64,000 nt of DNA from Antedon bifida (Eukaryota; Echinodermata; Crinoidea; Comatulida; Antedonidae): the NCBI GenBank assembly GCA_963402885.1, contig OY727095.1, forward strand, positions 18,419,001 through 18,483,000, read 5' to 3'. Below, piece by piece: positions 9,001 through 62,799 of this stretch. Numbering within the stretch: the first letter of the stretch is position 1; each line of letters opens with the position of its first letter. The notes under the pieces were generated by a model. It saw only the letters and a program-made list of their open reading frames with translations, did no database searches and was not told the DNA's origin. Both the position numbers and the translations under genes were made by a program.

Positions 9001-12000
9001 TCTTTTACTTGTTTACCCTTTCACGATCGTAGGTGCATCACATATGAAAATATCAATCCTCGCACGATGCATTCGGGTATTTATAGAGGGCAGCTTAAAT
9101 TATTAGAATCGACTTATTTTTCACATTTTCAAGATCTAAATAAACATGATAATTTGTACATGGATACCTTTAACATGTTTCATACTAAACAATCATTGAC
9201 AAATTGCACCTTAGCAGGAGAAGGAATGATGACTTTAAATATTGGGAAACTGTCACAATTATTAGGAGACTTTGGAGGTACTGCTTTCATTATTTATGAT
9301 ACAAGGGTATTGATTTAAATAAAGTATGATACATGTACTAGCCTTCTAGTATTACCTACTGTACTTGCACATACAAATTTAGCATAAGAATAGCACATAC
9401 TGTATGCAAAAACTCTCAACATGTGTTACATTTAACTAAAAGAATATTAAAAAACTGTTGGTGTTAAATGGTAATTCATTAAATATAAGTGTCGCTAACT
9501 TTACTATTAAACAGTCCTAATATTTCAGACTGGGATTCACATCATATCTGTGTCACATACATGCAGAAACTCTTGAATGTATTACCAATGTGTGTGTTTC
9601 CAAATTCTATCACGTGAAATTGACAATGCAACATCTTTTTAGACATATCATTTATTTCAGAATATGATAATAAATATTTAATGGAGAGTTGAACAACAAA
9701 GTTTGACAATTAATTTATAATGCCAGCAAAAATGATAGGTAAACAGGATCTTAGCATATTTACAGTACTGTATATAAATTTTGATGAGTTAACATCTACT
9801 TTAAAACATTGACACAAGAATGTATTAAAAGGAATAGGCATTAGGGGAATGAATTATAAAATAGTTTTAAATTTTAATTGAAAATCTTCTTTTAACACTA
9901 ACAGAAGTAAGAATAGAATTTGCAAATTTAAAACCGAGGTGACAGAAGCCATCTACATCTGCCAACTCTTTACTGTTACCAAATAAGTTAACATTATTTT
10001 ATCATGGAAAATTGTTCCCACAATACAAAGAGTTTTACCAGTTCTAGTCTTTAGGAAGAAGATCGCTTTTTCAGATGAAAAGAAAACATGGCACTGATAA
10101 TTAAATCATTTAACAATATTACAACATATATTGTAGGGTTTATTACTTACCCTAGTTGCTCAAGTATATATGGGATCTCATCTGCAAGTTGCTGCATTGT
10201 GGGATACACATACCTGAATATGGTAATAAATAAAAAGATAAATAGTTTTTGATACATAAAATACAGACATAATATTAATTGACTTTGAAGATTTAAAAAA
10301 AACTCTGGATTTTAATATCCAAACATGATTTCAACTGCAAAAATCAAAATTAAATAGCCTCTTAACATTGTTTGCTGTTTTAAACTAATTTTTTATTTTA
10401 ATTGCATTGCAAATGCCAATGTAAATCCACTTTCATTAATTTTCATAGTTCATGGAGTTAGATGGAATGTGATTTTTTCCTCACACATAAATTTTACACG
10501 TATTTAACTTGAATTGTACAATCAATACACAGCATGCAGGTGTTTTTCACCTATTTGTATTTATATTACACAAAATAGCTGCTAATTCAATCTAGACCTT
10601 GAATATATTAAAGTATGTGGCAAATGAAGATTTATACCTCTTAATGCATAATGAAGTGGACTGGAAAAACACAAATAAATGCAGCATACATGATGTTGTA
10701 ATCTACAGTAACTCATAGATTGGATATTTTTTGTAATACGAAAAATTAAAGCCATTTATAAAAGGCTGTATGAAGTTTTATTTAAAGATGTATTGTCCCC
10801 CAAAAACATGAAAAATGAAGATTTTAAAAAATCAGACATTAAATAGTCCATTTTGCAGTTTTAATAAAGTTATTCACTTCTGTAAAAAAAACCAAAATAA
10901 TGATTTAACTTATAAAAAGACAAAGAAACGTTTAGAAAGAAATTTTAACCAAAAACCATTGTCTGACACAATTTAACTATTTTTTGCTTTCAATTACATT
11001 TTATTCAGGTAAATAATTTTTTCTCGATCCAGTTTTTGGTCAAAGTGAATAACTATTATGTTCATTCATTCATTTAAAAAAAAAATTGTTTAGTGGGACA
11101 ATATATATCTTTAATACAATTATCAATAATTGCCCAGTATGTAAATCATTTCAAAGGCATTATTTTCAACAAAGTTAATTCATATTCAAATTGATGTTAT
11201 TGATTTTAAAATTTGACAAATGTCCTGAGAAATGTCAATTTCATATTGTAGTAGTGCACATTGTTAAAAAGAGCACATTCACTCGAAAAATACAACAATA
11301 GGCTGAGGAACTAATGGGGTATTCGTGGAGTAAAGCTGCCGTGTAAGCTTGGTTCCCAGGATGTAACGATGTAAGCGCAACGCAAGTGAGTTGACAAATC
11401 GCAAGCCAGAGTTTGAATGGTCTATCACCTCCTGATTGGTCAATTGCGTTTCTCCTACATCCTTGCGTTACATCCTACTTGGGGACCACGCTTTAATGTA
11501 AAATATAAGTAATCAGCTAAATTTCATCACGAGGTTATTCAGCGTTCAAAACTAATTTCAAATGACAGTAGTCATGTCTGCTGGTTATTCAGTTGAAAAG
11601 GGACTAATTAAAAAAGTTTATTGTGTATACTATTAACATTCAACAAACATATGTATCGGAGAATAGTAGCAAGCATAGCAAAAAGCTATACAAAACAACC
11701 TTATTGCTACACATTTATAAAATTTAATTGTGTAGCAAAAAATACAATACAAAACTGTTTCTCGACTTAAAAATCAGTTTGATTAGCAATATTGCTATAA
11801 CAAATTTAAAATGAAATTTTCCCCTGTGTACAAACAATATCTACAGATTATATTATCTACAGAAGTACTGTACAGTACTTCAATTTAGATATTTAAAAAT
11901 AATATAAATTGACTGTATAAAAGATGCATGTGATACTATTTCAATACCATGTTCCTTATCTAATATAATGTAGGTCACATAACAGTCATACTGTATCCCC

Positions 12001-18280: not shown

Positions 18281-18289
18281 TGCCCGTCA

Positions 18290-18371
18290 GCGTATTTTTT
18301 TTTTCCAGGACGAACGTGGGCAATTTACATAAATGGGCGTGGCTTAACCTCCAAAATACTCTCGCGCATGC
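18290..18371 (+). repeat. MULE left terminal inverted repeat
   Basis: It begins GCGTATTTTTTTTTTCC and contains ACGAACGTGGGCAATTTAC, GGGCGTGGCTTAACC and CTCGCGCATGC. It matches the reverse complement of 25171-25253 except for one A in an A run. The transposase start codon lies 52 bp further in, so the repeat probably contains or adjoins the element's promoter. Confidence 0.93.
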
Positions 18372-18422
18372 GCGTATTGTCTAAAAAAAGTTTTACTTTC
18401 TAGAGAGAGTATATGCAGAGAG

Positions 18423-21400
18423 ATGGCGAGTTGTTTAGCTGGGAATGCTTGCCCTGATCTAAAACTCGATACATGTCCTCGATTGCAGGTAAATTTTATC
18501 TCATCTTGTTTGAATGATGCATTGTTTTTCATGGGAGCTTATTAAGTTATTTTTTGACCCAAAATGTTCAAAGAATTTCACAAAAAATGCAGTAGAATGG
18601 GTCTCACACAATCGATCGGTAGCCTAGTTCAGGTAGTGTGTGTAGGCTAGTGTTTGTTGTATACACAATAAATTACATGCGCGTGTACACTGTTACTTGT
18701 TGTACAACTACCTATATAGGCCTACTCTAGTTATACTCATACATATAGACGTTAATGTTGTGTAAATCTCATGGTATTAAAACAATCACCCCAGTGTGTC
18801 ATTCGGGCTGCAGCGTGGTCTGTGGCATACTGCAGGGATCAAAGGCAATGTGTGTAATGTAAAAAATGGTTCTGAAGCAGAAATAAACAAATGAGAACAG
18901 GGTACCATATGTATAATTACATGGTATATGTAGATCTGTCCATAACCTATGACATCTTTCCCAGCCCAGTAGAGCATAGCCCTACATATTAAAAGCAAGT
19001 CATTTGCTTTTAAAAAGGACAACGTTTGGCTTGATAATGGGTTAATTACTACAAGTACAACACTTAATTTCGTCATAAACACACCCCTTTTAATATTATT
19101 CTTTCTTTAGTTTTGGATTGCAACAACAGGGACAAACAAGTAAAATACATACATGTTTGTTTTCGTCATAAGATGTTGGTTGCTCTAGACCTCTTTTTGT
19201 TGAATGTTTTGAGGTCTGTCACATCACCAGCATACTGATTAAGGCCATTTTTATGCCATTAAAGCCATCTGATTATAAATTAATTTCTCTTACAGATAAT
19301 ACTTCCAGAATTGCAATCAGGTCACAAGTATAAAATTTGCCACTATGAAGAAAACGGAAATTCAATGCTATGTACCCTAAGGTTACCACTCACCTCTGCT
19401 GAAGAAACACTAAGGTGGCTTAAAGAGTTTGAAGGAACTTCTTACTCAACATGGAGGACAAACAAAACATATCCAAATAGCGGACAAAAAAATGTCTTCC
19501 GGGTATGTACAGAAATTTGTCTCGTATCGTGTGTGAAAGTTGTGACAGCTGTAAGGATATTATTTTAACTGTTGATAGTTGTCAGTATAAATTACTACTT
19601 GGGTTTTGTTTTTGTGTTTTTGGTTTTTTTTTATCTTTTGTGGTTAACCACCACCTTTATTCATTCAATGTTTGTAAACAACAATTACAGAATCTCTAAG
19701 AATTTTCTACATTTTTTTGCTATTTTCTTATTTTTATCCTCTTTAATATTAATAATAATTTTAATATTTTGACTTATACGTAGTACCCAATGTTTTCTTA
19801 ATGTATTAATTTGTTTTGTCTAAAATATATGTTTACATTATTTTCTGCATATTTTTTTATGTTATCTATTACAAAATATATTGCATTAATAAAAAGTTGT
19901 TTACTTATGAAACGTTTGTTAACTTATTTATTATAATTTGTGTGTCTTTTAGTTTATATATATAGTTGTGTTGTGTTTCGTTAACAGGAATTTATCACTA
20001 TCAGCTAATTTCCATAGTTTTGTTTTTGTTTTTATTAGAGGTTTTGAAGAATTATCATGAATTCGATAAAAGTTCACATTGCAGCAAGGAATTTTGTATG
20101 GTTTGATTTGGACAGGATAAAGATCTTTAATAAAATAGCTATGATAACAAGTTCTAAATCAGATGGGCACAAATGCTGTTTTGCAATATTGTACCAAATA
20201 CTCATCATCTGAAGTATGCTAACATTACTTTACGTAATAAATATTTTCTACATACAGTATCATCAGTTTGATAATTATTGTCCTGTTTTTAATGGATGGA
20301 ACCTGCCACCTCCTGATTGACATGATGTATGTTTTTTTATAACAGGTTGACTTGCACTGTCACCATAACACCCATCCACGATCCTCAACAGCTGACCTGA
20401 AGAAAGGTTCCAAAAACACCAACTGCCCGAGCACAATGTTTGTCATAGTGAAGAGGACAGCTGACTGTCGTGGTCGAAACAGGTAAGCATGATTGTTTTT
20501 AAAGAAATTTAAAAGACATGACGGTATAGAAACAATACATTGACGCAAATTTAAAAAATGTAAATGTTAGGCCTATTAATTTGGCACTGGTTCTAATCCT
20601 CCTGAGAAAAAGCTACCATCTGCAAGAAAATTGTGTTAACCACTTCATTTCTTTGAGTTGAAATATGTTGTACCAATTCAAATGACAAGGATTTATGTGT
20701 GTCTTAATATCAACACACACAGTTTACTTTTGTTTAAATTGTTTTCCCAAGTTCCTGTACTGTCTGTCTCTGATGATTCATTAAAGCCAATGCATCAGTT
20801 ACAGCTTAAATTTTTGTTTTAACTGTTCAGGTCTAAAGATAAACACATAGGGCAAGGTTATCCAACAATCATAACCTTGAAGTGGGATCACAACCATGAG
20901 GTGGCAAGTGCTGATGCCCTTCGAGAAAGGGATGTAAGTGATGATGCAACGGAGAAGCTTCTTGAGCTCTACAGATCAGGCCATTCACCATCATCTGCTC
21001 TGGATACCATCAAATATGATCTTCAAGAAGGCTGTACAGATGTTGAGTACACAAGAGTCTCTGCAGACAGAGCCCATTGCCCTGATTTGCAGTACTGTTA
21101 CAGGTAACATTCTGTCTATGCTTTTCAAAGTTCTACATTGCTCTTTTCAAAATTGTATACAGTTTGGGAACAGGATGTTTGATTGATCTTCAGGGTCTAT
21201 AGAAACAAGTAAAAATGCTTGAAGCATTCCAATTTGTCCGGGCTGCTTAGTGGACGAAAACAAAAAACTTTATCAAGTATTTATATAGTATGCAAGCGAC
21301 AAAAAATGTATACCTAATTTTTGGTATGTGTTCTCTTTTGTTGATTTTAGGGTATTTTACAAGGAATTCAGGACACACTATGGGGACACCGGTGGAGCAA

Positions 21401-23091
21401 AAATGATGCTATTCCTTGACAAAAAGGTTCAAGATTTTAATGAGAACCACAATGATGAATGTGTAAAGCTAGAGACAACCGGTGATGGCCAGACCGTCAT
21501 TGCTATTTGCACACCCCTTATGAAGCGAGTACACTCTATGTGGAAAATCAGTAAAGAGATGGTTTTTGTGGACTCCTCTGGCAACATGGATCGCCAGAAC
21601 TGCAGAGTCTTTTTATTGCTGACGCATAGCCCTGCTGGTGCTCTTCCACTTGGTGTTTTAATAACATCTTCTGAGTCCGAGTCCACTTTAACATCTGCCT
21701 TCAAGCTGCTTCATTCAATTTTACCAGAGAGTGCTTTCTTCAATGCAAGTAATGGTCCAGGTATATTTATGACAGATGATTGCACATCACTTCGATTGGC
21801 CCTGCATGAAGTTTATCCTAATTCTGTCTTGCTGCTGTGCCATTTCCACTTGCTTCAAGCCATGTGGAGATGGCTGTGGGACAGCAAGCACAAGATTGAT
21901 AAAAATGATCGACCCCATCTCCTTAACATCTTCAAAGCCATGGTGTATGCTGAGACTGAGGATGACCTACACAGCATGTTCAAAAGAACAACAGAAGCTG
22001 ATGCTACTTCCCTAAAGTATCCAGGCTTTGTAGCTCATGTGAATGAAATCTATGAGCGCAGAGTGACATGGTCACTAGCCCACAGGAAAGATCTGAGAAC
22101 AAGGGGCAACAACACTACAGCTTATTGTGAAGCTGCCATGAGAATTCTCAAAGACAAAATCTTCTACAGGCTGAAGGCATTCAATATCTGTCAACTTACT
22201 GATTTTGTTCTGACCCGGTTGGAAAATTATAATGTAAGAAAGCTGACAGACATCGCCAACAATCGCCTCAACAGCAACAACTTGATTTCTCGATTCTACC
22301 CTTGTCCGAAAGATGTTTCCCCGGATGCTGTCACCAAGCTAGGAAATTGTCAAGAGTACACAGTAAAAAGTGCCAGGGAAAACATTTATTACAATGTGAA
22401 CATGGACATTGGAATCTGCACATGCCCAATAGGTAGAACAGGTGCTCCATGCAAGCACCAAGCAGCTATTATGCACAAATACAGTATAGAATCAAGCAAC
22501 TTCCTCCCTGTTCAGTCTGTAGACATGAGAAAGCTTTTCTACACAATTGCTACTGGTGGAGATGCAATTGATGACCATTGGTTTCAGCCACTCAGGAGTG
22601 GTATATTGCAAACTGACAACTGCCGAAACATCAGTGTCTCCTCTTCAAAAGATGCCTCATCCACAGAAGAAGCTTCCTCCCTAGAAGGAACCCCCTCACT
22701 AGAAGGAACCGCCTCCCTAGAAGGAACCTCCTTTACAGAAGGAATAGCCTCCACAGAAGGAACAGCCTCCACAGAAGGGACGTCCTGTACAGCAGATGAT
22801 GATGCAACCCCAGCTAAAGGTGGTGCACACCATATGGGACAATTACAAGACCCCCAGATCCTCCGCATCCAATCGTTAAGATCACAGGCAACACTGATTA
22901 ATCAATTTGGCCAACCAAGCAAGCGTGTGCCACAGGTTGAAGAACAGTTAGAGTGTACATTTAATTCAATCCGACAAGAGCTGAGAAACGGGGATCATGA
23001 GTTTGAGAAGGCAGTTAAGCATTTCGTCTCAAACTATAACAAGCTCACTACACACAGTCACCTTGTCAGTGCTCTGCATACTTTTGGTTAA
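18423..23091 (+). CDS. MULE transposase with SWIM zinc finger, six exons
   Basis: Exons are 18423-18488, 19296-19502, 20346-20482, 20831-21103 and 21351-23091, with an 807-residue open product; phases agree at each junction. (Five coding blocks were resolved; an additional untranslated exon is possible.) The N-terminal part has Cys/His-rich segments (LHCHHNTH, then NTNCPS) resembling the FLYWCH/WRKY-GCM1-type DNA-binding module of MULE transposases. The catalytic region shows VDSSGNM (Asp about 302), FMTDDCTS (Asp about 370), the family's LCHFHLLQAMW segment, and AYCEAAMR (Glu about 488), a plausible DDE triad. A SWIM finger follows, CTC-x7-PCKH (Cys 584, 586, 595 and His 597). Residues about 660-705 are an acidic Ser/Thr-Glu-Gly repeat. 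It should excise and insert the surrounding element in the nucleus. Domestication is less likely given intact ends and target duplication. Confidence 0.9.
22671..22790 (+). repeat. Tandem minisatellite inside the transposase gene
   Basis: Repeats built on CC(C/A)(A/T)(A/C)-AGAAGGAACC, with 24-base spacing and half-units, encode runs of S-x-E-G-T. The frame stays open throughout, so repeat number can vary without breaking the protein. Low-complexity acidic linker expected. Confidence 0.8.
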
Positions 23092-23424
23092 GTACAGTGG
23101 GGCATCATTAGCATCGAGGTGTAAGGTCAAGGCAAGGGGACTTCAAACATCTAGCAAAATTGGAGTGCAGCCCACATCTGTTGCTAGGCGTAAGATGCCA
23201 CTGGGTGGGAGGAGGCGTTTGACCATCAAAGGCTGCATTCACCACCGAGCATGGCTATGCTGTTAAACGCAAAACCAACACACCAAATAGCATGCATGAC
23301 CTTCCAAGGAAGAAGCGATCGGCAGCCCCGCACAACCTTTCATTTTGTGTTTTACAAAATGCATCACTCGGCAAAAGCCACACTTCAAAGTAAATTCTCA
23401 TAGTACTGCTGTTTCACAGCCCAT

Positions 23425-23645
23425 TTTCATAATGAACACGTTGAGATTATTTAGAGGGTTAGATTTAGTTGATACAGTAGTTGACACTTTTTAGAGTGTT
23501 AGGTTTTTGTTGATAGTTGACATTATTTAGAGGATTAGGTTCAGTTCATAGCTGAGGTTATTTAGAGAGTTTGGTTTAGTTGATAGATGAGATTATTTAG
23601 AGGGTTAGGTTCAGTTCATAGTTGAGGTTATTTACAGGGTTAGGT
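23425..23645 (+). repeat. Short-period tandem repeat within the MULE
   Basis: About five imperfect units of roughly 40 bp share TTGAGATTATTTAGAGGGTT-like text followed by AGGTTCAGTT(G/C)ATAG. They lie in the transposase 3' untranslated region. Subterminal repeats in DNA transposons sometimes bind transposase, but these sit far from either end. Confidence 0.75.
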
Positions 23646-24284
23646 ACAAAGCCCTTAATAAAATGATATACCAAACCAAATACTCAAGCAAGAGATTATA
23701 TTTCGTCATATATGATAATATATAAATACAAATAGCAGTACTGTATGTACTGTATACATTGAATTCTGTAATGAAACAAAAGATACATTAGAAAATAGTA
23801 ATCGTAATATTTGTATTGTTTTATTTTAACATTTCTCTTTTTCTGGATTTATTAAATTATACTGTATTTACAATTTCTTTTAAAACAGTTATAATAAAGG
23901 ATGTGCAATTTGAATTTATGTGTATCTGGTTGAGTTAGTCTATTGCCATTATTAGTTAAGAATAACATAATGCCATTGAAACTACAAACATCACTTCATA
24001 AGGTATCATTAAATAGTCACCTATTTTTCCAATATTTTTTATTTTATACCCATAACACTTTGGCCAGGAACATTAATATTATTCTTGTAAACTGGTGGTT
24101 TACAAAACATCACCTAGTTGTAAGTACACATATTGATAAACATGAAGACATTGCAGACAGTGTGACTTTCTTAGATGTCATTAAAATAGGTAGTTATTAT
24201 TGCTTTGGAACAACGAAAATGAACATAACATCATGTACGATGACCACGATTATCTTAATACCAACAAATAATAATACCTAACCC

Positions 24285-24440
24285 TTAAAGATGTATTGTC
24301 CCCCAACAACATAAAAAAATGAAATGAATAAAATCAGCCTTTGAATAGCTCATTTTGCAGTTCTTAAATTATAGTTATTCACTTCTGTAGAAAAAAAAAC
24401 CAGCAAAAATAATTATTTTACTTATACATTTTTGACATTC
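24285..24440 (+). mobile_element. TTAA-flanked MITE, copy 2 (truncated, nested in the MULE)
   Basis: TTAA then AGATGTATTGTCCCCCAAC at 24289 matches the left end of the copy at 10786, and the following 150 bp share GTTATTCACTTCTGTA. No right end is seen, since LINE-like sequence follows. Confidence 0.7.
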
Positions 24441-24469
24441 CAGTTCTCGGCAAAATATTTTTAATAAAC

Positions 24470-24690
24470 CATACTGAAAACAATAACATTATTTATCAAA
24501 AACAATCAGGCTTTGCAAGGTATTCCGCACACTTAGATAATATTTTCATCCTAAACAGCACAATCCAAAAATATTTAAGTAAAACTTAAAAGAGGGATCG
24601 AGTATTCTGTTGTTTCGTTGATCTGAAACTTCCCTTTGACAGCATAAATCAAAATTGTTTATTAACAAAATTAAGATAAATAGGTTTAAG
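24470..24690 (+). mobile_element. Non-LTR reverse transcriptase fragment nested in the MULE
   Basis: Broken frames read SGFARYSAHLDNIFILNST then IQKYLSKT and a degraded catalytic strand. This matches the fingers region (QxGFRxGxST) of non-LTR RTs, with several stops. It is a dead fragment that must postdate, or have been carried with, the MULE. Confidence 0.6.
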
Positions 24691-25170
24691 CAATAATACA
24701 TTTCACGTAGCAACCACAACTGCTTTTCGAGCTATGTCAGAAATAGCTGCTATTATAGCAGTATTTAACCCTGGCCTTAGACTAAATACTAGCATCAGTA
24801 GCATGCTTTTCAAGTAACAGCTATAGTGTAATATAGTGTTATGAGGTTTCTGACTTGTAATGAAGACTCTTACTCGCTTGACTGCACGTAACACATATTG
24901 TTTATTCAATAATACTTGATACTATATTACAATAGGCCTAGCAGTAACACTTAACTCTCAGACCTGAGAGCATAACGACAGTCCCACTGTCTATTTTACC
25001 AATAATGGCACAACTAGCATTAACTAGCATGGTCATAGCACCAAATTAGTAAAAAAATCTGTATGTCTTAACGCAGAAAAAAGCAGATACAAACATTTGT
25101 TATTTTGTACGCGATTATTTAGATCCGTGAATGGCTTTCTGTCGCCTCACAACTATTTCAGTCCAAGTAC

Positions 25171-25253
25171 GCATGCGCGAGAGTATTTTTGGAGGTTAAG
25201 CCACGCCCATTTATGTAAATTGCCCACGTTCGTCCTGGAAAAAAAAAATACGC
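25171..25253 (-). repeat. MULE right terminal inverted repeat
   Basis: Reverse complement of the left repeat at 18290-18371; it ends AAAAAAAAAATACGC just before the right TGCCCGTCA target copy. Confidence 0.93.
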
Positions 25254-25633
25254 TGCCCGTCATTTTATTTATTTTTTTTATTTAGGACATGAACACAGGA
25301 CAACAAAAAGTATGAACAAATAAACATAAATAGTTTGTTTTTTTAATCCATCGACATACTAATTAAAACACATAATTCCTGATTGCACGCAAATTTCAAC
25401 CCACCAATTCAATACTGTTAAAAGATTGATCATGAAAGAATATCTTAAATAAGAACGAGGTGGAGCGGGTACATAACAAATTAGCACCCACAAAACACCG
25501 AGAACAAAAATTGTTATTCATAATTAGGCTCCCCTGGTAGGCAACCACTATTAACGGCAAGTACAACACACAGATCTGCCCTGTATTTCTCAATGGCTAT
25601 TTTCATATTTAATACATTTAATATATGTTTAAA

Positions 25634-26754: not shown

Positions 26755-27080
26755 TAAAAGATATATTGTCCCCTAAACATTTTTTTTTTTCCACATTTTT
26801 TGTTGAATATGCCATTTTAATGTCACATATTAATAGTTATTCACTTTGACCAAAAGCTGGATTGAAAAAAATGTAAATTAAAAGCAAAACATACTTAAAT
26901 TGTCTGTCAGACAATGAATGGTATTTGGTTAAAATTAACCTTCTTTTGTCTTTTTATAAGTGAAATAATTTTTTGTTTTGGTTTTTTTTTACAGAAGAGA
27001 ATAACTTTATTAAAACTGCAAAATGGCCTATTTAAAGTCAGATTTTATTAATCTTCTTTTTTCATGTTTTTGGGGACATT
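26755..27080. mobile_element. TTAA-type MITE, copy 3
   Basis: AGATATATTGTCCCC at 26759 and, inverted, AATGTCCCC ending near 27078 bracket AT-rich DNA. The interior (GTTATTCACTTTGACC, TGTCTGTCAGACAATG) matches the copy at 10786-11110 read in the opposite orientation. Flanking TTAA is not preserved. Confidence 0.7.
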
Positions 27081-27400
27081 AAAATAGAACATAGATACAT
27101 AAATTACAGTTTGATTAATATGAATGTTTATTAAACTGGATACCAGCCAATTTAATACTGTATTTAACATTAACCTAACAAATTCTAAAAATAGAATTAC
27201 CATTGGGTTCCTCATTACTGGTAGCTTCATATTTAAATATACAAATCAAAATAGCTTTAATTCAGCATCAATATTGCGGTCATTTAAAAAATTTCTTTCT
27301 AAAAGTTAAAATTTAGAATAAAAATAGCTGATATGAACTTTTATTTTAAAATTGTGCATAATGTAGAATAAACGCTTTTGGATAAAAATATAGATGGATC

Positions 27401-33400: not shown

Positions 33401-36400
33401 AGTAAGGTCCTCAAAGAAAGTAATAAAACATACAAAGCCATGCTTGTTAAGATGGTAAAGGTGTAGTGCAACACAAACAAGCAGTGAGTGAAGAAGACAT
33501 GGGGAAATACTTGACTTTTTGGATATTAGAGTACACCAGATGGACTTCAAAATAAATTGATATTGATTTTACTTTGCTAACCGTGGTAGAGAGAACCTTC
33601 AAGGTATGTCGATTTCCAAGTTGAAGTAGATGACAACAAGTAATAAAAAGAAAAGTCTATGAGCTGTACTTTGTCTACAAAAATGTGTGAAGTTTCAGAA
33701 GACCAATCAAATAATCTGCCTCAGACGTATTGGCTTATGCCTTTCCTCTAGTCAAGGTGGACACTGGACGAGAGAAGCCCTTGATCAATGTTAGGACCAA
33801 TCAAGGTGCTTTAAACAGTCCTGGCTTTGTTTGTATCAAACCTGTTAGTGGCGGTAATTATCGCTGTTGGTTTCGATTGAATAAAATAAAATAATGCCAT
33901 TTCAGAATCTGAAACAATCCATATCAAAATCTTAAACTCTTAGTAGTGAATCTAATTAAAAATCACAGCACTTCCACGGACCAGTTACCTTTTTAAACAA
34001 GTAAAAATGCAATTAAAATACAGTTTTCCAAATAAATCTATTTACAGTAGTATGTTATAATATATGAGTTTATATGCAATGTAAATAATATGCACATGTT
34101 TAAAAAGCAATAAATCTTACTATGTTTCAAACATTTTCTTCAATCTGATTCAAATGACAGGAATTTATTTAGATGTTATATAAAACAAATAATTAATGTT
34201 TTATATTCGTGTAATGGTACAAATAATGGCACTTGGTGAATGATGAAAGGTTATAATATATAATAAAGGCTGAAATATCATCATTCACCTCATGTCATTA
34301 TTTGTACCATTACACTCATAACATTCATTATTTGTATAATAGCATATACAACTTGGAACAGTTAAATTTAATTGTTTGAAGGGATGTAAAATCAAACATT
34401 TTATTTGGCCTATTTGTAAATGAAATGTCATTCAAAAAATAATTACATTAGATATTGAGAATCTACTCTACCTTATTGGTAATAAAATAAAATAACGAAT
34501 CATGAATCCCATAACCCAAAGGATGGTCAGTCGCATACTGCAAAAGAAAAGAGAGATTGAACTACAACTCGTCAAAACACAAACAGAAAAAACATGTTTG
34601 TTATTAGGAACATAGATATATCACGCCTTAACTCGACGCAGTGTTTTACCACTTTAACACTTGGGAAACCCCATACTACTGTATTTCTGAAAGATGTAAA
34701 TGGCTCTTTTAAAAGTCAGTCAGTTTTAAGTCCTTATTACAGAAGAGAGTGCAGGGGAAGATTCAAGTGGGCCCCAGTCAGCCCAGGCACCCTCTAAATT
34801 TTAAAATCCTGGATCCACCACTGAAGTTAATTTTCTTGCAAAATGCTCAATGAGGGGCATTTTGTCTCTAGTATTTAAACCATCTGGGCGAACATAGTCA
34901 AATCCATGAGTGTGGAAAAGGGCAATAACTGAGTGCCTTAATACCAATACCATTTTCAATGAGATAACTATTTTTAGAAATTTATTTTTTACAAAATGTG
35001 TCGGATCAAGTACCTTAAATATTGATAATTCATATTGGTTCTTGTTAAAAGATTCCATGATGGTAATTCTGTCAAAAAAAATATCTGAATTATAATTTTA
35101 TGGAATTAATTTTATAACAAATTATAAACTGGGATGCACAGTGTGGGAAAACTGGCGCGGGATGACCAATAAAAATGACGGTCGACTTGTTCTCTGTCGT
35201 CAAGCATCACTATAGACCTTTATGTTGTAGTTTGACTAACACAGATTAGAACACAATAGAATTGTTATCAGTATGTTACAAATCCACAATGTAGTCAGAT
35301 AACAAAGAAGAAAACATTGTGACATGATTTATCAAAGCCTGATCACATTATTTAATGTGGTGTCTAGACTAAAGATATGTAATTATCAAACTTGCTACAG
35401 TACATTAATGTAGACCTCTTTGAGTCACCTCATAGCAATAAAGAAAAATTTAAAATCGCATTTTTTAAAGATATATTGTCCCTTTTTTTTAAAAAGGTTT
35501 TTGTTGAATATGCCATTTTAATGTCACATAATACTAATAAGTAATAGTTCACTTTTACCAAAAATTGGATTGACAAAAAAAGTTTTTTTTCTATCGAAGT
35601 GATTAACTTTATTAAAACTTCAAAATGGCCTATTCAATCAAGGTCTTTTTTTTTTAAATTAATTTTAATTTTTCATTTTTTTAACAAAGATAAAGAAACT
35701 GCTTCTATTTAATGCTCTCCAAGGTCAATTCAAAATATTACTGTATCATTAGATGAAATAATTAATTGTAGATGATAACATATATAACAACAATTTGTCA
35801 AACTTTATCTTTATCATTCATAAAATTACGAGAGATTTTATTTTGTAGATCAAAATTAAAACTCTTGAATATTCAATGCACATTGATTTTTCTATTGTAT
35901 TTATTGACCTTGTGTCCTGTTCATAAAGCACAGCTGATAACATCTACAGTATTGTACAAACTATACTGTGATAATACATCCCCTGGATTAATTCTAAATA
36001 GTAATAGTTTGATAGTAGAGTGGCCTGTGAAACTCTTCTGTTGGTAGACCATTCCCACATACCATTCTTTCAATAAACAAGATATGTACCAGAAAGTCTA
36101 ATAAATAGTGTGTCTCTGTGTTGCAACAAAATTCTGGAATAATTCCACTATTTTTTAAAAAACCATTACAGTATTTTGAAGATAATGTATGCAGTAGAAA
36201 TGCACACTTTAGATTTTTTTCTTCAGAAATTCAACTTTTACTAAAGACTACAGAAATATTATTGAGAAACAAAATTTTAAATTTTTAAAAGCCTTACCCT
36301 CTGCTGAAAATCTTTTGGTAACGTCATCATCAATTATTGCCTAAAACCAAATGAAACACATTGAAACTAATCAGTATTTTCTTTTTGTCACCATCGTTAT

Positions 36401-38990: not shown

Positions 38991-39288
38991 CTGTTTGTTT
39001 GTTAATGCGGGGGGAATGTACGACCAAGAAGTAGTTGGACGAATAGCACCCATGAGGCCGAGGTCTACGACATTTAGTTCTGTACTATCAGAGATAAGAC
39101 TACTGGAAAGGGAACGAAAGCAGCAACCGTGCGCACCACACCTAGCCCTCCCATAACGCCGACAAATGCCAAAGGTTCCGAGGAGGACACGTCGCTGCAC
39201 TGATTAGTTACGGATATGGAAAGAAAAATAAGTTTTCTTGAGGCAAAGGAAGCGGCGCAGCAACGGCCCAACACGACACAACCTAGGG

Positions 39289-39948
39289 GACTTGAATGCT
39301 ACGGCTGCGGCCAAATTGGACACATTCGACGATTTTGCCCAAATGCGTCGACGGGAAACGGCAGGTCACCACAACAGTAGGTGGGTTGATGGTGAAAAGC
39401 ACACACCCAAAGGACAGACATATCTTGTCGGGCCAACTAATCAAGCAGAAATATCAATTCATGGAGTAAAATGTAACGCCCTTATTGATTCAGGCTCACA
39501 GATATCAACTATAACTATTAAATTGTATAACAAAATTCCAGAATTAAAATCACAAGTTATGGAACGTTCACCAATAGAAGTTATAGCGGCAAATGGCCAG
39601 AGTGTCCCATACTATGGAATTATTAATAGCAACATCAATATACTCAATAAAACATACTTCGCTGTTACCGTGTTTGTAGTCTCAAACAGTAAATACCGCC
39701 AAACTATGCCCATACTGATTGGGACCAATGTTCTGCGTGCACAGAGAGACGACAAATGCAACATAAAAGACAAAGATGCAGCCTTTGAAGCAGCATTTGC
39801 GCAAATGGAGAAAAATATACAACCAGAAAATGTTGGCAGAGCTGTCTACTTTAATAGAGACCCTGCTCGCATAAACCCAAATCAATGTACTGCAGTGTGT
39901 TCTAAAGAAAAAATATCAACATGTGAAACGTGCGCCTCTCATGAATAA
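39289..39948 (+). mobile_element. Zinc knuckle and aspartic protease region of the retroelement
   Basis: A CCHC knuckle, CYGCGQIGHIRRFC, is read around 39298-39340 in one frame. The neighbouring frame (39238-39948) carries a retropepsin-like ALIDSGSQIST active-site segment and ends at a stop at 39948. The order of knuckle then protease fits Ty3/gypsy Pol. A frameshift separates the two parts. Confidence 0.7.
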
Positions 39949-40560
39949 TCACACTTACGAACCAATGGAACTACTATGCATCGACTTCCTTGGTCTGGAA
40001 CGGTCGAAAGGAGGCTATGAGAATGTTTTAGTTAGTTATCACCGATCATTTCACCCGATATGCCTTAGCGTACCCAACGAAAAACCAGACGGTTGAAACT
40101 GTTGCCAAGGTACTATTTCAGAACGTATCCACTCCGATCAAGGGCGTAATTTTAAAAGCACAATAATTAAATCTGTGTGCAAAGTCGCCGGAATAACAAA
40201 GTCGCGTACTACACCCTACCACCCAATGGGTAACGGAACTACGGAGAGATTTAATAGAACACTAATCAACATGCTGGCTACACTCCCACTTGATTGTAAA
40301 CAGGACTGGAAGGAATACGTTAGCGATATGGATTCTACAGGTTATGCACCATTTTACTTAATGTTCGGCCGTCATGCCAATCTACCAATTGATGTAATGT
40401 TTGGACTTGATAGCGATAATCATAATAGCGATGACGATGATTATGATGAGTTGGTCTTACAATTTCGCGAGCGATTAAAGCTGGTCTATGACCAAGCAGC
40501 CAAATCGTCCATGAAAGCCAAAGACAAACAGAAACGCGAGTATGACAAAAAGACAAGTCA
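39949..40560 (+). mobile_element. Integrase fragment of the retroelement
   Basis: Frames show an integrase core: LCIDFLGLERSKGGYENVLV, then ITDHFTRYALAYPTKNQ, and HPMGNGTTERFNRTL containing the conserved catalytic Glu, ending near YDKKTSQD. It follows the protease directly, so the reverse transcriptase and RNase H regions that normally lie between are absent. Frameshifts are present and no LTRs were found. Confidence 0.75.
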
Positions 40561-41125
40561 AGACAATGGCAGCAGGCAGTTCATCCGGATTGCATTCTGT
40601 GTCCTTGCATAGTTGATCTATGTAGGTTTTGTGGGGACGTCTAACCTTCTGACGACCATGTCTTGGATTCCATAGAAGTGTAGAGCTAAACAAGTTCTCT
40701 TTTCGATCTCCAACAATGTCCAGCAAAGCGAAGACGCCGTTGTCTGATTGTGGAGGAGATTGGAGGCATACTGTATTTCCGTATAACTGTGGTTTGGTTG
40801 GATGATCTCTCCAAGATATGTCCAGAACTACTCTTAGCATACGAGTGTATGTACCATCAAGTTTCGCTTCTAAAGCTTTCGTTAGTGTCCAGGTAGAGGA
40901 TACATACAGCAGCACCGATTCAACTGTGGCTTGAAAGAATTTTCTTTTGATATCCTGTGTTTTAGAGATAACCTTCAGTGAGTTGAGGGCAGTCCAGGCT
41001 TTAGCTATTCTTATTTCAACATCTTTTGATGACGACTCGATGTGACTTCCTAGGTCACCAAAGTGACCAATTGGATCCAATTTGAAATTGATATTGGTTC
41101 CTTCCAACCAAATATTTAAATTTCT
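40556..41125 (-). mobile_element. Endonuclease-RT LINE fragment (RT C-terminus), minus strand
   Basis: An open frame reads HIESSSKDVEIRIAKAWTAL, then VLLYVSSTWTLTKALEAKLD, RMLRVVLDISWRDH and a Cys-free end RPHKTYIDQLCKDT...DELPAA. This is the C-terminal region of animal endonuclease-RT LINEs. It abuts the integrase fragment tail to tail, and the end of the LINE frame is cut off there. Confidence 0.75.
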
Positions 41126-42840: not shown

Positions 42841-42854
42841 AAAGTTGTAATGGA

Positions 42855-44370
42855 AGTAAAGCAGATATTGAACAGTTAGAACATATACAAATTCAGATGG
42901 CCAAGTACCGGATAAAAGCAGGATCAGACGTGAATGTTGCAAGCGAGGTAAGTCATACAAACTTATATTTAGTGTCTCAAGTAATTGTATAATTTTAACA
43001 AAATATTTAACTTTTTTTCTAATTTAAAAAGTCTAGATTAATTTTTCATAAAGTCTACAAATTGGAGTAGTAAAGATCTTTAATGTAATAAAATAAATTG
43101 TTTCTTGACAAATGGCGTGAAGATATGAAAGCAAAATCCTCACTTACTCAATATGCTCAATTTAAGACTGCACCTTTTATAGAGGAATATCTCCTTGCTT
43201 AAAATTTAAGATACGCTCCAACACACTAGCTTTAGATGGTCGGACGTACTGTACAAGTGGGCCAATACTGCTATACCCATCAATTAATTATGGTTGTAGT
43301 ACTTGGTGTAATATAAGTAAAGCAGATATTGAACAGTTAGAACATAACAAATTCAGATGGCCAAGTACCTGATAAAAGCAGGATCAGACGTGAATGTTGC
43401 AAGCGAGGTAAGTCATACAAACTTATATTTAGTGTCTCAAGTAATTGTATAATTTTAACAAAATATTTAACTTTTTTTCCAATTTAAAAAGTCTAGATTA
43501 ATTTTTCATAAAGTCTACAAATTGGAGTAGTAAAGATCTTTAATGTAATAAAATAAATTGTTTCTAGACAAATGGCGTGAAGATATGAAAGCAAAATCCT
43601 CACTTACTCAATATGCTCAATTTAAGACTGCACCTTTTATAGAGGAATATCTCCTTGCTTAAAATTTAAGATACGCTCCAACACACTAGATTTAGATGGT
43701 CGGACGTACAAGTGGGCCAATACTGCTATACCCATCAATTAATTATGGTTGTAGTACTTGGTGTAATAGAAGTAAAGCAGATATTGAACAGTTAGAACAT
43801 ATACAAATTCAGATGGCCAAGTACCTGATAAAAGCAGGATCAGATGTGAATGTTGCAAGCGAGGTAAGTCATACAAACTTATATTTAGTGTCTCAAGTAA
43901 TTGTATAATTTTAACAAAATATTTAACTTTTTTTCCAATTTAAAAAGTCTAGATTAATTTTTCATAAAGTCTACAAATTGGAGTAGTAAAGATCTTTAAT
44001 GTAATAAAATAAATTGTTTCTTGACAAATGGCATGAAGATATGAAAGCAAAATCCTCACTTACTCAATATGCTCAATTTAAGACTGCACCTTTTATAGAG
44101 GAATATCTCCTTGCTTAAAATTTAAGATACGCTCCAACACACTAGATTTAGATGGTCGGACGTACTGTACAAGTGGGCCAATAACTGCTATACCCATCAA
44201 TTAATTATGGTTGTACAGTAGTACTTGGTGTAATAGAAGTAAAGCAGATATTGAACAGTTAGAACATATACAAATTCAGATGGCCAAGTACCTGATAAAA
44301 GCAGGATCAGACGTAAATGTTGCAAGCGAGGTAAGTCATACAAACTTATATTTAGTGTCTCAAGTAATCC
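42855..44370 (+). repeat. Tandem 461-bp repeat within module A
   Basis: Starts of AGTAAAGCAGATATTG fall at 42855, 43316, 43771 and 44238 (spacings 461, 455 and 467). Each unit carries the coding piece ADIEQLEHIQ...VASE followed by GAGGTAAGTC and an AT-rich spacer. Copies are more than 95 percent alike by eye, so amplification was recent. The fourth unit is cut short. Confidence 0.9.
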
Positions 44371-52224: not shown

Positions 52225-53818
52225 AAACACAAGCAAGTGAGATAACAGTTTCTTCAAGAATTTAGAGTGGTTTTCTACCAGTTTCTCTGTTTTAACTTAA
52301 ACTCACAGGTAAGTGAGATAAAGTATACAACAATCTTCAATGGTCCAATTATTTTCTTTGTAGCAATTTAAACTCACAGGTAAGTGAGATAAAGTATACA
52401 CCGATCATCAATGGTCCAATCATTTTCTTTGTTGGAATTTAAACTCACAAGCAAGTGAGATAAAGCATACAGCAATCTTCAATGATCCAATAAATTTATT
52501 TGTTGTGATTTAAGCTCACAGGTAAGTGAGATAAAGTATACAGCAATCTTCAATGATCCCATCAATGTCTTTGTAGCAATTTAAATTCACAGGCAAGTAA
52601 GATAAATTATACAGCAAACTTCAATGGTCCCATCAATTTCTTTGTTGTGATTTAAACTCACAAGCAAGTGAGATAAAGTATACAGCAATCTTCAATGGTC
52701 CAATCAATTTCTTTGTAGCAATTTAAACTCACAAGCAAGTGAGATAAAGTATACAGCAATCTTCAATGGTCCAATCAATTTCTTTGTAGCAATTTAAACT
52801 CACAAGCAAGTGAGATAAAGTATACAGCAATCTTCAATGATCCAATCAATGTCTTTGTTGTGATTTAAACTCACAAGCAAGTGAGATAAAGTATACAGCA
52901 ATCTTCAATGGTCCAATCAATTTCTTTGATGTGATTTAAACTCACAAGCAAGTGAGATAAAGTATACACCAATCTTCAATGATCCAATCAATGTCTTTGT
53001 TGTGATTTAAACTCACAAGCAAGTGAGATAAAGTATACAGCAATCTTCAATGGTCCAATCAATTTCTTTGTTGTGATTTAAACTCACAAGCAAGTGAGAT
53101 AAAGTATACAGCAATCTTCAATGGTCCAATCAATTTATTTGTTGTGATTTAAGCTCACACACAGGTAAGTGAGATAAAGTATACAGCAATCTTCAATGAT
53201 CCCATCAATGTCTTTGTAGCAATTTAAATTCACAGGCAAAGATAAATTATACAGCAAACTTCAATGGTCCCATCAATTTCTTTGTTGTGATTTAAACTCA
53301 CAAGCAAGTGAGATAAAGTATACAGCAATCTTCAATGGCCCAATCAATTTCTTTGTAGCAATTTAAACTCACAAGCAAGTGAGATAAAGTATACAGCAAT
53401 CTTCAATGGTCCAATCAATTTCTTTGTAGCAATTTAAACTCACAAGCAAGTGAGATAAAGTATACAGCAATCTTCAATGATCCAATCAATGTCTTTGTTG
53501 TGATTTAAACTCACAAGCAAGTGAGATAAAGTATACAGCAATCTTCAATGGTCCAATCAATTTCTTTGTTGTGATTTAAACTCACAAGCAAGTGAGATAA
53601 AGTATACACCAATCTTCAATGATCCAATCAATGTCTTTGTTGTGATTTAAACTCACAAGCAAGTGAGATAAAGTATACAGCAATCTTCAATGGTCCAATC
53701 AATTTCTTTGTTGTGATTTAAACTCACAAGCAAGTGAGATAAAGTATACAGCAATCTTCAATGGTCCAATCAATTTCTTTGTTGTGATTTAAACTCACAA
53801 GCATGTGAGATAAAGTCA
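52225..53818. repeat. 71-bp satellite array with higher-order duplication
   Basis: About 22 units share TTTAAACTCACAAGCAAGTG and AGATAAAGTATACAGCAATC, a TTCAATGGTCCAATCAATTT segment and a variable CTTTGT(TGTGA/AGCAA) junction. Period is 71 bp. Variant units recur in the same order: the pair with AAGCTCACAGGTAAGTG then AAATTCACAGGCAA occurs at about 52510-52610 and again at 53150-53240. That implies a later block duplication of about 640 bp (nine units). Outer units are more divergent. Each unit holds a small palindrome, CTCAC-x-AGC/GGT-AAGTGAG. Confidence 0.93.
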
Positions 53819-54440: not shown

Positions 54441-57010
54441 ACAGGACTTTTTTAATGGTACAGTATTAAATCTATATTTTCGAACTTTATGTTCCTTTAA
54501 CATCAGTAATAAGTTCTTGCAGATACAGTTTTGCAACCCTAAGAAATCAGTTGCAGAAGAAAAAGGAAAACACCTTTAAAATATGGGAACATGGAGGACA
54601 ATTGATATACCTCGTATTTTGTCATGATATTACAAGAAGTTTACATTTGAGTGTTTAATCTGGTTGTAAACATTGATGATCATGCAATTGTAATAGATCC
54701 CAATGGGAAAAGCCATAAACAGGTGCTTCTTTAAGCACTATTTTCTAACTTTATGTTCCTCTAACACATAATCAGTTCTTGCAGATAGGTGATACAATTT
54801 TGCGACCCTAAGAAATCGGCTGCAGAAGAAAAAATTAAGGAAAACCCATTTAACAACATATGGGATTATGGAGGGCAACTAATATACCATGCTATACATC
54901 GTATCTGTCATGATATTATTACTAAGCAGTTTACATGGTTGTATTTGATATGAGTAAAAACCTTGATGATCATGCTATAGTTATTGATTCCAATGGGAAA
55001 AGCCATAAACAGGTGCTTCTTTAAGATGACCGGTCTGATTTAATGGTACAGTATTACATCTATATTTTCTAACTTTATGTTCCTCTAATCTAACACATAA
55101 TCAGTTCTTGCAGATAGGTGATACAATTTTGCAACCCCAAGAAATTGGCTGCAGAAGAAAAAATTAAGGAAAACCCATTTAAGAACATATGGGATTTTGG
55201 AGGACAACCAATATACCATGCTATACATTGTATCTGTCATGATATTATTACAAGCAGTTTACATTGTTGTCTTTGATATGAGTATAAACCTTGATGATTA
55301 TGCTATTGTAATTGATTCTAATGGGGAAAGGCATATACAGGTGTCTCTTTATGAGGGATTATGGAGGACAAATGATATAACATGCTAAACATCGAATCTG
55401 TCATGATATTACAAGAAGTTTACTTGGTTGTCTTTGAATCAGTATGAGTGTAAACATTGATGATCATGCTATAGTTATTGATTTCAATGGGAAAAGGCAT
55501 AAACAGGTGCTTCTTTAAGACGACCTGTCCGAATTAATGGTACAGTATTAAATCTATATTTTCTAACTTTATGTTCCTCTAATCTAACACATAATCAGTT
55601 CTTGCAGATAGGTGATACAATTTTGCGACTTTAAGAAATCGGCTTCAGAAGAACAAATTAAGGAAAACCCATTTAACAACATCTGGGATTTTGGAGGGCA
55701 ACCAATATACCATGCTATACATCGTATCAGTCTCGAAAATTACAAGCAGTTTACATTGTTGTTTTTGATACGAGTGTAAATATTGATGAACATGCTATTG
55801 TAATTGATTCTAATGGGGAAAGGCATAAACAGGTGCCTCTTCAAGACGACCAGTCTGATTTAATGGTACAGTATTAAATCTATATTTTCTAACTTTATGT
55901 TCCTCTAACACATAATCAGTTCTTGCAGATAGGTGATAGCATTTTGCGACTTTAAGAAATCGGCTGCAGAAGAAAAAATTAAGGAAAATCCATTTAACAA
56001 CATATGGGATTATGGAGGACAACCAATATACCATGCTATACATTGTATCTGTCATGATATTATTACTAAGCAGTTTACATTGTTGTCTTTGATATGAGTA
56101 TAAACCTTGATGATCATGCCATTGTAATTGATTCTAATGGGGAAAGGCATATACAGGTGCCTCTTTATGAGGGATTATGGAGGACAAATAATATACCATG
56201 CTATAAATCGTATCTGTCATGATATTACAAGAAGTTTACATTGTTGTCTTTGATATGAGTGTAAACATTGATGATCATTCTATAGTTATTGATTCCAATG
56301 GGAAAAGGCATAAACAGGTGCTTCTTTAAGATGACTGGTCTGATTTAATGGTACAATATTAAATCTATATTTTCTAACTTTATGTTCCTCTAATCTAACA
56401 CATAATCAGTTCTTGCAGATAGGTGATACAATTTTGCGACTTTAAGAAATTGGCTGCAGAAGAAAAAATTAAGGAAAACCCATTTAACAACATCTGGGAT
56501 TTTGGAGGGCAACCAATATACCATGCTATACATCGTATCAGTCATGAAAATTACAAGCAGTTTACATTGTTGTCTTTGATACGAGTGTAAATATTGATGA
56601 ACATGCTATTGTAATTGATTCTAATGGGGAAAGGCATATACAGGTTCCTCTTTAAGACGACCAGTCGATTTAATGGTACAGTATTAAATCTTTATTTTCT
56701 AACTTTATGTTCCTCTAACACATAATCAGTTCTTGCAGAAAGGTGATACAATTTTGCGACCATACGAAATCGGCTGCAGAAGAAAAAATTAAGGAAAATA
56801 CCTTTATATGGGATCATGGAGGACAATTGATATATTATGCTATACATCGTATCTGTCATGATATTACAAGACGTTTACATTTTAGTGTTTATTCTGGGTG
56901 TAAACAAAATTAAGGAACATACCATTAACATATGGGATCATGGAGGACAATTTGACCTGTATCATGCTATACATTGTATATATTTTCATTTTCAAGATAA
57001 ACTAAAAAGG
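54440..57010 (+). repeat. Tandem array of exon-like units with a GTPase-like switch II motif
   Basis: Seven units are aligned on (C)TAACTTTATGTTCCT at 54482, 54745, 55069, 55563, 55889, 56374 and 56699. Each has a plausible intron end (branch-like CTAAC, then CAGTTCTTGCAG) followed by protein-like text. That text is an AAEEKIKENPFNNIWDYGGQ segment, IYHAIHRI, then in a shifted frame AVYIVVFDMS and DDHAIVIDSNGKRHKQ, ending CAGGTGC like a donor. IWDxGGQ followed by a hydrophobic YIVVFDxS strand is the G3/switch II to beta-4 pattern of Ras-like and Roc (ROCO, MFHAS1-type) GTPases. All copies carry frameshifts, so this is an array of exon relics. No P-loop was found. Confidence 0.7.
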
Positions 57011-58266: not shown

Positions 58267-58439
58267 GTAGATATTCTAGCCCTACTAGAAAGCTTTACTC
58301 CTACAGGCTTAAACTAGCTTTGGAGTAGGGTATGCCTATGTATATATGGCCTTCTAAAAAATGTGCGTCATCTTGAAAATTCCACCTTTCGGACTTGTGT
58401 TTACCGCTATTGAGGCTAAGTCAAATTGGGATCGCATAC

Positions 58440-59026
58440 TTTCCGAATTTTTAGAATGAAGATGTATCTAGAGTCACTACCAGATTGTCAATGGAAGGAT
58501 GAACAAAAACGGTCCGAACTTCACACATCAATGGATGCAGAACCATCTAAGACCGTATCGTCCTTTGACCTAGAGTCGCTTGAAGATTTCCAATAAAGCC
58601 ACAACCTCAACACATCATGTTAGTGTGCCATTGCTATCTGAAAGGGACCCATCTTTCCGAAAAAGGGTCACATGAATAGACAAACCTTTTCCAGGCGATT
58701 CAACTAATCTAGCACTAGTAGAATACTACAGTAGAGTAAATTTTAAAAAAACAAAGAGAAGTAATAACAGAAACAGAATAACAGCGGGAACAGAATATAT
58801 CAGAACTGCAAACAGTACAAAGATGGCAGCAAAACAGAGACTTGCCACACAAACCTCACATGCTGATCTCCTGTTAAATGGAAGGAACGCCAATCCTAGA
58901 GGCATGAAACAGATACAAAATATAAAGTATAGCATGAAAGAGAAAGAAAAGGGACATCCTGCAGGACAAAATACAGCAGACGAATTACAAGCGATTTTGA
59001 CGAAGCTTGCGACAATGAATTTGTAA
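58440..59026 (+). pseudogene. N-terminal half of an unrecognised multi-copy protein, copy 1
   Basis: Frames broken by indels carry CQWKDEQKRSELHTSMDAEP, a SSFDLESLEDFQ stop, then AAKQRLATQTSHADLLLNGR and a MKQIQNIKYSMKEKEKG stretch ending in TKLATMNL. The same text occurs with better continuity at 59515-60478, so this is a tandem, partial copy. It probably belongs with the downstream family members. Confidence 0.6.
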
Positions 59027-59514
59027 AGAAAAAGTAGATCAAAACGAAAACAGCTACTTATTTCTCAATATTTTGTTTACGATTTTTCACCCATTAAGAT
59101 TCTATTAAATGTGTTAGATCCCTATACTGTACCCCTGTGATTGATTGTTTATTACCTGTGAGTAAGCAGCACAGAAATTAGACCCCTACAAAATTTAGTT
59201 CAAGGACCTGTGGAGTATCACCTTTGCAGCTAAGGTTGGGTCTCTGGAATGTGACTTATCATCATTAAAAAGTCAGATACTGAGACACCAACACTTGCAT
59301 TTACGTTATGTGTATTATTTCACAGAGTATGATTTTGCACCTGTAACAAATGTTTTGCAAAAAAAGATTAGACGCCTACCTCAATTAATTAATAAAAAGT
59401 AGCAAATCTTAAAAAATTGACGAAATCTTTGAACTTGCTTAATCCATTTATTTTATTATAATAGGTGTACCATCATCTAATGCAAAACAACATAAATATG
59501 AAGATATATGTTCA

Positions 59515-60478: not shown

Positions 60479-60479
60479 A

Positions 60480-61064
60480 ATGAGTAAACTGCGATACAAA
60501 GATGGAAAAGGTGATCCTGGAGGATTTACATTTCTAGACAGGAACAACATTCCACGAAATATTCTGCCAAGGTACCGAGGCAATCGGCTTCATATTTTGT
60601 TTGACAATGCAGGAATGCTCATTCAGCATCATGACCTTTTTATGGAACTAAGATCAGGTACTTCTCTTGGTGGATTATGTGCATCATTGATAAAAAATTT
60701 TGGTAGCAATGGCAAAGGCGGAGTTACAAGTATTGGGCCTCATAGGAAAACATTTAACTGGGTCATGGATGAGAAAATTAATCATATTGAAGACATTACA
60801 GTTGTAAAGGAATTAATAAAACGTTTAAAAGAAACTCGGACAAACCCAACAACCATCCTAAAGATGAAAAATGATTTCTTTGGCGAGGAGATAGTCGTTG
60901 ACAATGTATTAACGAAGCTTAGAGCAGTAAACACCTCTGACGAACAATTTAGCTCCCTAATAAAAGGCTGCATAGAGAGTGCCGTGCTTGTTTTAGAGAG
61001 GCAGTACGAAAAGTATTTCAACTTAAAGATTACGGAAACCTTTAAAAAAGAAAGACTTTTATGA
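60480..61064 (+). pseudogene. Conserved C-terminal region of the unrecognised family, copy 1 (open 194 codons)
   Basis: The frame begins MSKLRYKDGKGDPGGFTF and has PRYRGNRLHILFDNAG, SLGGLCASLIKNF, an NDFFGEEIV motif near residue 128, and ends FNLKITETFKKERLL. It continues directly from copy 2 of the N-terminal half, after a stop. The GNR-x-H-x-x-F-x-x-AG and D-x-FGE words recur in the neighbouring copy, which shows they are the conserved core. It stops before the ARVHNIEAE region seen downstream. Open but probably truncated; function unknown. Confidence 0.6.
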
Positions 61065-61182
61065 CCTTTTGACCTCATATGCAATCACCCTATAGGACCA
61101 TAATTTGACACAATATTTACATTATAAAGATTAATAACACTGTTAATATTGGCCGGAAGACATTGAATTTGGTATCATTTTA

Positions 61183-62775: not shown

Positions 62776-62799
62776 TACTGTATATAATTATGTTTCCGG

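Follow-up and report, generated by a model that had tools for sequence, protein, structure and literature searches.

A stretch of 64,000 nucleotides from the crinoid Antedon bifida (assembly GCA_963402885.1, contig OY727095.1, positions 18,419,001 to 18,483,000; hereafter the window) contains at 18281..25262 a cut-and-paste DNA transposon with target-site duplications (TSDs), terminal inverted repeats (TIRs) and a five-exon transposase gene. It is very likely a young copy from a small family of Mutator-like elements (MULEs) with recent activity, a family that inserts at a CNG core and in which two sister copies encode a 911-residue protein. The anatomy is that of an ordinary MULE; what is out of the ordinary is the target rule, by which two positions do not vary in any of the perfect duplications examined.

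The element is flanked on both sides by TGCCCGTCA, which upholds the perfect 9-bp duplication described in an initial annotation made from the sequence alone. Since the TSD begins with TG and ends with CA, the window taken alone is also compatible with a TSD of 7 or 5 bp and correspondingly longer ends. These shorter TSDs were ruled out by other genomic copies, which, having perfect 9-bp TSDs and an element start of GCG, settle both the duplication and the boundary. The two TIRs match with 0 substitutions and a single 1-base indel within an A/T run. The near-perfect match reported initially thus stands but the length does not, being 83 and 84 rather than 82 bp, and the inequality is due to an extra base at 25186 that is private to this copy. 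When the whole window was scanned for inverted ends of 14 bp, flanked by a perfect 8-10 bp TSD and at most 12 kb apart, this element was the sole result, and a 48-base piece of the TIR had no third match within the window at up to 3 mismatches. As a control for the reading frame, random stretches from outside the element were joined in the lengths of exons 1-4; the result was open in 1 of 200,000 trials. The uniqueness of the scan and this control exclude a chance origin. When the joined flanks were used to look for an empty site in the window, they matched only their own places and, shortly and weakly, two positions at 25.6 and 26.3 kb. Rfam (gathering threshold) and tRNA scans of the window yielded no matches.

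Copies were sought in the species' own genome (315.6 Mb in 27 contigs, with the window on contig C8). The search of the assembly with the TIR end, which the initial annotation had proposed, yielded 65 candidates; 40 were scored as matches, and 14 of these were perfect. Twenty regions were fetched, seven with long copies (L009-L015) and 13 with only one end, short relatives or weak fragments, so that eight long copies are known including that of the window. Two of these, L011 and L013, span the full element. Each is separated from the window copy by three substitutions, in alignments of 6,962 and 6,943 bases respectively, which bears out the claim that the element is unusually young. L014 differs by 42 substitutions over 6,860 bases; the other four, which contain deletions or inserts, show 9 (L015), 21 (L010), 49 (L009) and 52 (L012) substitutions. 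A perfect 9-bp TSD next to the GCG start is found at the window copy, L009, L011 and L013, and none at L010, L012 and L014. L015 was rejected as a further perfect site: shifting its register by one base gives a perfect 9-bp repeat, but with the GCG start only 8 of 9 positions agree. The element is young, and its family has moved recently.

For the analysis of target sites, 34 end pairs were scored, namely the window, 28 single loci and five pairs made from two loci. Termini were chosen by their GC ends and fewest TSD mismatches and not by the target letters; L035-L038 were excluded as duplicates of the L023 site and ends already scored were not recounted. A perfect 9-bp TSD was found for 21 pairs, or 20 upon removal of L022, which has the same flank as L019. 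These 20 distinct sites are those of the window, L009, L011, L013 and 16 other members of 296 bp to about 4 kb. All 20 have C at TSD position 4 and G at position 6 (NNNCNGNNN), with C or G as the middle base in 16, in surrounding DNA of about 34% GC (window value 0.335). C4 and G6 together have a chance of about 10^-19.7, as judged from 9-mers of equal GC in the window and loci L009-L028. The positions were chosen after the first ten sites; the correction for this choice is small, since two positions with two letters allow 576 choices. The rule was also tested on single ends with a clean GCGT terminus, which form part of the 103 ends with the TIR core and are partly non-independent as both ends of some insertions are included. 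It was obeyed by 37/37 ends in loci with a perfect TSD and by 35/38 in other loci, or 30/33 once the window's own pair and three ends repeating one duplicated site are removed. The two L010 ends have different flanks, both of which conform to the rule, suggesting that two insertions have recombined. The target core CNG is near-absolute in this family, in its long as in its short members.

With up to 1 mismatch allowed, the genome contains 47 + 56 matches to the TIR core CCAGGACGAACGTGGGCA, against 0 + 0 for the reversed control, and many of these are paired 300-400 bp apart, representing short relatives. Relatives of 296-394 bp with the same ends were recorded at 13 loci (L018, L019, L020, L023, L025, L027, L029, L030, L044, L048, L069, L071 and L072), all with 9-bp TSDs (8/9 in L023). 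At L035-L038 the L023 site is found again, seemingly spread by duplication of the surrounding DNA.

The transposase gene has four introns with GT-AG borders at the junctions named in the initial annotation, and the predicted spliced frame of the window copy comprises 807 open codons, in agreement with the open spliced gene claimed there. The gene is presumably spliced and expressed. The protein matched the Pfam family MULE (PF10551) with an E-value of 3.9e-7 and 30.9 bits, over the cut-off of 27.6. Asp302, Asp370 and Glu488, the DDE-like triad proposed initially, are present, with 68 residues from D302 to D370 and 24 from D370 to H394, and a SWIM-like motif CxC...CxH is found as well. By eye we also noted an N-terminal C-C-HxH pattern, unreported by Pfam, which we take to resemble FLYWCH/WRKY-GCM1 fingers. 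An AlphaFold2 model of exon 5 alone had a mean pLDDT of 35.9 and was discarded, and a PDB sequence search gave 0 hits at E-values up to 1. The coordinates of all features are listed in the table.

Features of the element in window coordinates
Feature	Position	Strand	Remark
Left TSD TGCCCGTCA	18281..18289		perfect 9 bp
Left TIR, 83 bp	18290..18372	+	14 own-genome matches at 100% over all 83 bases
TIR core CCAGGACGAACGTGGGCA	18305..18322	+	common to short relatives
Palindrome CGCGCATGCGCG at TIR inner edge	18363..18374	+	fits the NRF1-type consensus YGCGCAYGCGCR
Transposase exon 1, ATG at 18423	18423..18488	+	start codon and splice sites conserved in both L011 and L013
Transposase exon 2	19296..19502	+	GT-AG, open frame, sister comparison
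Transposase exon 3	20346..20482	+	GT-AG, open frame, sister comparison
Transposase exon 4	20831..21103	+	GT-AG, open frame, sister comparison
Transposase exon 5, DDE domain and SWIM-like finger	21351..23091	+	stop 104 residues before that of L011 and L013
Coding minisatellite, 18-bp unit, 6.6 copies	22660..22778	+	repeat search
Private one-base insertion (T)	23088	+	absent from four covering sisters, L010, L011, L013, L014
Site of 11 missing bases	23220..23221	+	present in five covering sisters, L010, L011, L013, L014, L015
Noncoding minisatellite, 35-bp unit, 5.7 copies, 3' of gene	23442..23645	+	repeat search
5' piece of an unrelated genomic miniature inverted-repeat transposable element (MITE)	24285..24426	+	about 81% to copies at 10782 and 26955
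Second NRF1-type palindrome copy	25168..25179	-	1 mismatch; motif count
Right TIR, 84 bp	25170..25253	-	one private extra base
Right TSD TGCCCGTCA	25254..25262		perfect 9 bp

Compared with the sisters that cover each place, the window copy has six private changes: two substitutions, two deletions and two insertions. The substitutions are at 18599 (seven sisters compared) and 23016 (four); a 2-base deletion lies near 18753 and an added T at 25186 (seven each), and the remaining two are listed in the table. It is the added base at 23088 that causes the stop at 23089-23091, whereas L011 and L013 encode one identical protein of 911 residues; the 11-base deletion lies beyond the stop. The last 105 residues of the long protein (the shared Gly807 plus 104) contain 23 K+R versus 2 D+E, and no Pfam match was found in the sisters' C-terminal tail, which may serve in nuclear localisation or DNA contact. 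In L014 the start codon and the last splice acceptor are missing, and large parts of the gene are gone from L009, L010, L012 and L015; the long protein is therefore encoded by two of the eight long copies. Judged by its sequence, the window copy is young but damaged. The initial annotation had called it intact, which is wrong, and saw in it all parts needed for a competent element, which finds no support: relative to its sisters it has a frameshift near the 3' end of the gene, a stop after 807 residues and no basic tail.

Two other readings of this damage were weighed. The window copy could be competent and autonomous, its 807-residue protein being native and the extension of the sisters functionless, as the catalytic residues and the SWIM-like finger lie in open frame upstream of the stop and the extra tail has no Pfam match. 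Against it stand the four covering sisters without the extra base, the five that keep the 11 bases and the sameness of the L011 and L013 proteins, and the charge of the last 105 residues is what would be expected of a nuclear-localisation or DNA-contact tail; we regard this reading as improbable. To about the same degree we doubt that the frame damage is an assembly error in a copy that in truth resembles its sisters: of the four private indels, two consist of one added T each, but the other two, deletions of 2 and 11 bases, are less typical of consensus errors, and two private substitutions are present besides.

Several points weigh against the assignment to an active MULE family with a CNG rule. 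The Pfam SWIM match (16.8 bits) is below its cut-off of 19.6; for the SWIM finger of the initial annotation, the motif is present. Glu488 and W468 were assigned by spacing alone (D370-E488 118 residues, W468-E488 20), and 118 is just below the D-E spacing of 120-135 in 8 of 12 arthropod families (PMC13359780; here and below, statements on cited work refer to the parts of the sources available). Relatives of exon 5 gave no pattern match in the virus collection viral_contigs and ten, of which 0 were confirmed, in the prokaryotic genome_contigs, and nothing was found in phage records searched with the TIR DNA and the exon-5 protein. As to the rule, 13 of the 34 end pairs lack a perfect TSD, nine end entries without a clean terminus stood outside the test, and the three exceptions among the 38 single ends, one each of L012, L014 and L073, break it. 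A ZSWIM1-3 match with an RNase H-like model, 17.5 bits and hence also below its cut-off (27.2), is what a domesticated ZSWIM1/3-type host gene lying by chance between inverted repeats might give, but near-identical copies are found elsewhere in the genome, three with their own perfect TSD, and the MULE model scores higher and over its cut-off, which makes a host gene hardly credible. The rule could alternatively reflect insertion survival or GC-rich open chromatin instead of sequence reading by the transposase. MULEs elsewhere prefer genic or GC-rich regions (PMC2774946, PMC5225508), and flank GC outside the TSD, mostly 0.2-0.6 per position, is overall somewhat above the window's value. Such causes are very unlikely to produce a constraint at exactly two dyad-symmetric positions, seen in every one of the 20 sites and against a GC-matched chance as low as that given above.

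The identification of the element as a young MULE, already made in the initial annotation, agrees with three features of such elements, a MULE transposase domain, a TSD of 8-11 bp and long TIRs, and D302, D370 and H394 fit the Mutator spacing. Muta1, a Phantom-group MULE from Aedes aegypti (PMC5225508), likewise has a TSD of 8 or 9 bp, long TIRs, a spliced transposase and short nonautonomous relatives. Its D-D and D-H spacings are close to those of the window element (D214-D283 69 versus 68, D283-H307 24 in both); W-E is 18 there and 20 here. It differs in being 3.2 kb long with 145-bp TIRs of subterminal repeats, a FLYWCH finger and 504 residues, and, unlike the family described here, it showed little or no preference over 171 genomic insertion sites and those in yeast (PMC5225508). 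Animal MULEs of the groups Ghost, Spectre, Phantom and Rehavkus share TSDs of 8-10 bp, some groups have a SWIM finger, and arthropod TIRs measure 20-95 bp in most species (PMC6446971, PMC13359780). A minisatellite follows the transposase gene in aphid Phantom, as in the window element, and lies before the 3' TIR in Rehavkus (PMC6446971). Here the minisatellite of 35-bp units also lies before the 3' TIR, about 1.5 kb away. A PHD finger had no Pfam match up to E 10 in the 807 residues and none in the sisters' tail, and on this feature the element is not Rehavkus. MULEs have been reported in many arthropods and molluscs (PMC13359780, PMC10294476).

With regard to targets, maize Mu/MuDR shares the 9-bp TSD and a dyad-symmetric pattern, but this pattern is the weak SW::SWNNNNNWS::WS, with exact SWSW in 61 of 2,127 sites, and leaves the five central bases free, whereas in the crinoid family the two bases beside the centre are fixed (PMC2774946). 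Tm1 of root-knot nematodes lacks a clear TSD consensus (PMC3169594), Hop has no apparent specificity as cited in PMC2725143, and Hvu_Abermu has TA-rich targets (PMC9168764). MuTAnT from Medicago has a marked preference common to its short relatives, as in our case, but for TA microsatellites rather than a CNG core (PMC4486113). MULEs with a target preference thus exist. No CNG rule for a MULE was found among the literature matches listed, as far as these sources were available. The family is Mutator-like with ordinary anatomy, and its near-absolute CNG core sets it apart, the rule being sharper than those reported, in the parts of the sources seen, for the other Mutator elements compared.

The palindrome CGCGCATGCGCG spans the inner edge of the left TIR about 50 bp upstream of the start codon and fits the NRF1 consensus YGCGCAYGCGCR, which makes it a candidate NRF1 site. 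The pair of palindromes in the table are the only matches in the window at up to 1 mismatch, where shuffles of the window give 0.04 expected, and when the left TIR was shuffled 20,000 times with dinucleotides preserved, 13 of the shuffles contained the exact motif; these figures overstate the case, since the motif was picked by eye after seeing the sequence. Observed/expected CpG is about 1.7 in the TIRs, 0.30 in exon 5 and 0.55 outside the element, so that CpG is retained in the TIRs and strongly depleted in exon 5. In mouse germ cells NRF1 acts as an activator of unmethylated IAP elements (PMC12420836), and the literature matches listed for NRF1 and transposons include mouse IAP retrotransposons, with no DNA transposon carrying an NRF1 site in the parts available. 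The palindrome is a lead for a possible promoter in the left TIR and may equally be a transposase site. That CNG targets (mostly CCG/CGG, thus CpG-bearing) and an NRF1-type TIR promoter would tie expression and targeting to unmethylated CpG DNA is a speculation we hold to be improbable.

Under the interpretation as a recently active MULE family, transcription would start from the left TIR, and the spliced gene would give a DDE transposase, probably acting in the long form of the sisters, whose SWIM-type finger would bind the TIR core. This enzyme would excise the element and insert it elsewhere through cuts staggered by 9 bp, reading the target symmetrically about its middle base, with C directly to the left and G directly to the right. 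This arrangement is consistent with a pair of transposase subunits that each touch one of the C.G pairs flanking the dyad, and suggests a two-fold symmetric strand-transfer complex. The short relatives of about 300-400 bp, having the same ends and rule, are presumably mobilised in trans. The window copy would be a recent insertion that acquired private mutations truncating its protein.

Other mobile or repetitive DNA was noted in and around the element. In its 2-kb tail, 11 open reading frames (ORFs) of at least 40 residues overlap 23092-25260. The MITE family, with ends near AAAGATGTATTGTCCC / GGGACAATATATCTTT, is represented at 24285-24426, 10782-11130, 26760-27081 and 35583-35666; the divergence of the internal piece from the two window copies compared suggests early uptake by the MULE lineage, long before the insertion. 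Satellite-like arrays are found at 52282-53816 (71-bp unit, 21.6 copies), 42846-44368 (456-bp unit, 3.3 copies) and 54600-56900 (alternating 160/321-bp units). Retroelement pieces at 39238-40612 include an aspartyl protease over the cut-off and a weak integrase match below it. The stretch 58400-62800, with ORFs at 59636, 60480, 61183, 61544 and 62305 and no Pfam family at cut-off, is internally duplicated and perhaps a degraded mobile element. The initial statement that most other transposons of the window are decayed was not confirmed, the basis being a passing look at nine other ORFs of at least 120 residues, two of which had a Pfam match of mobile-element type (aspartyl protease over and integrase under the cut-off), both short pieces.

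Published target choice of Mutator elements is, in the parts of the sources available, weak, absent or AT-biased. A rule of two bases, together with dozens of natural insertions, could help to locate the region of the transposase that recognises the target. The window copy itself illustrates a transposase gene damaged soon after insertion while sisters with the longer protein persist.

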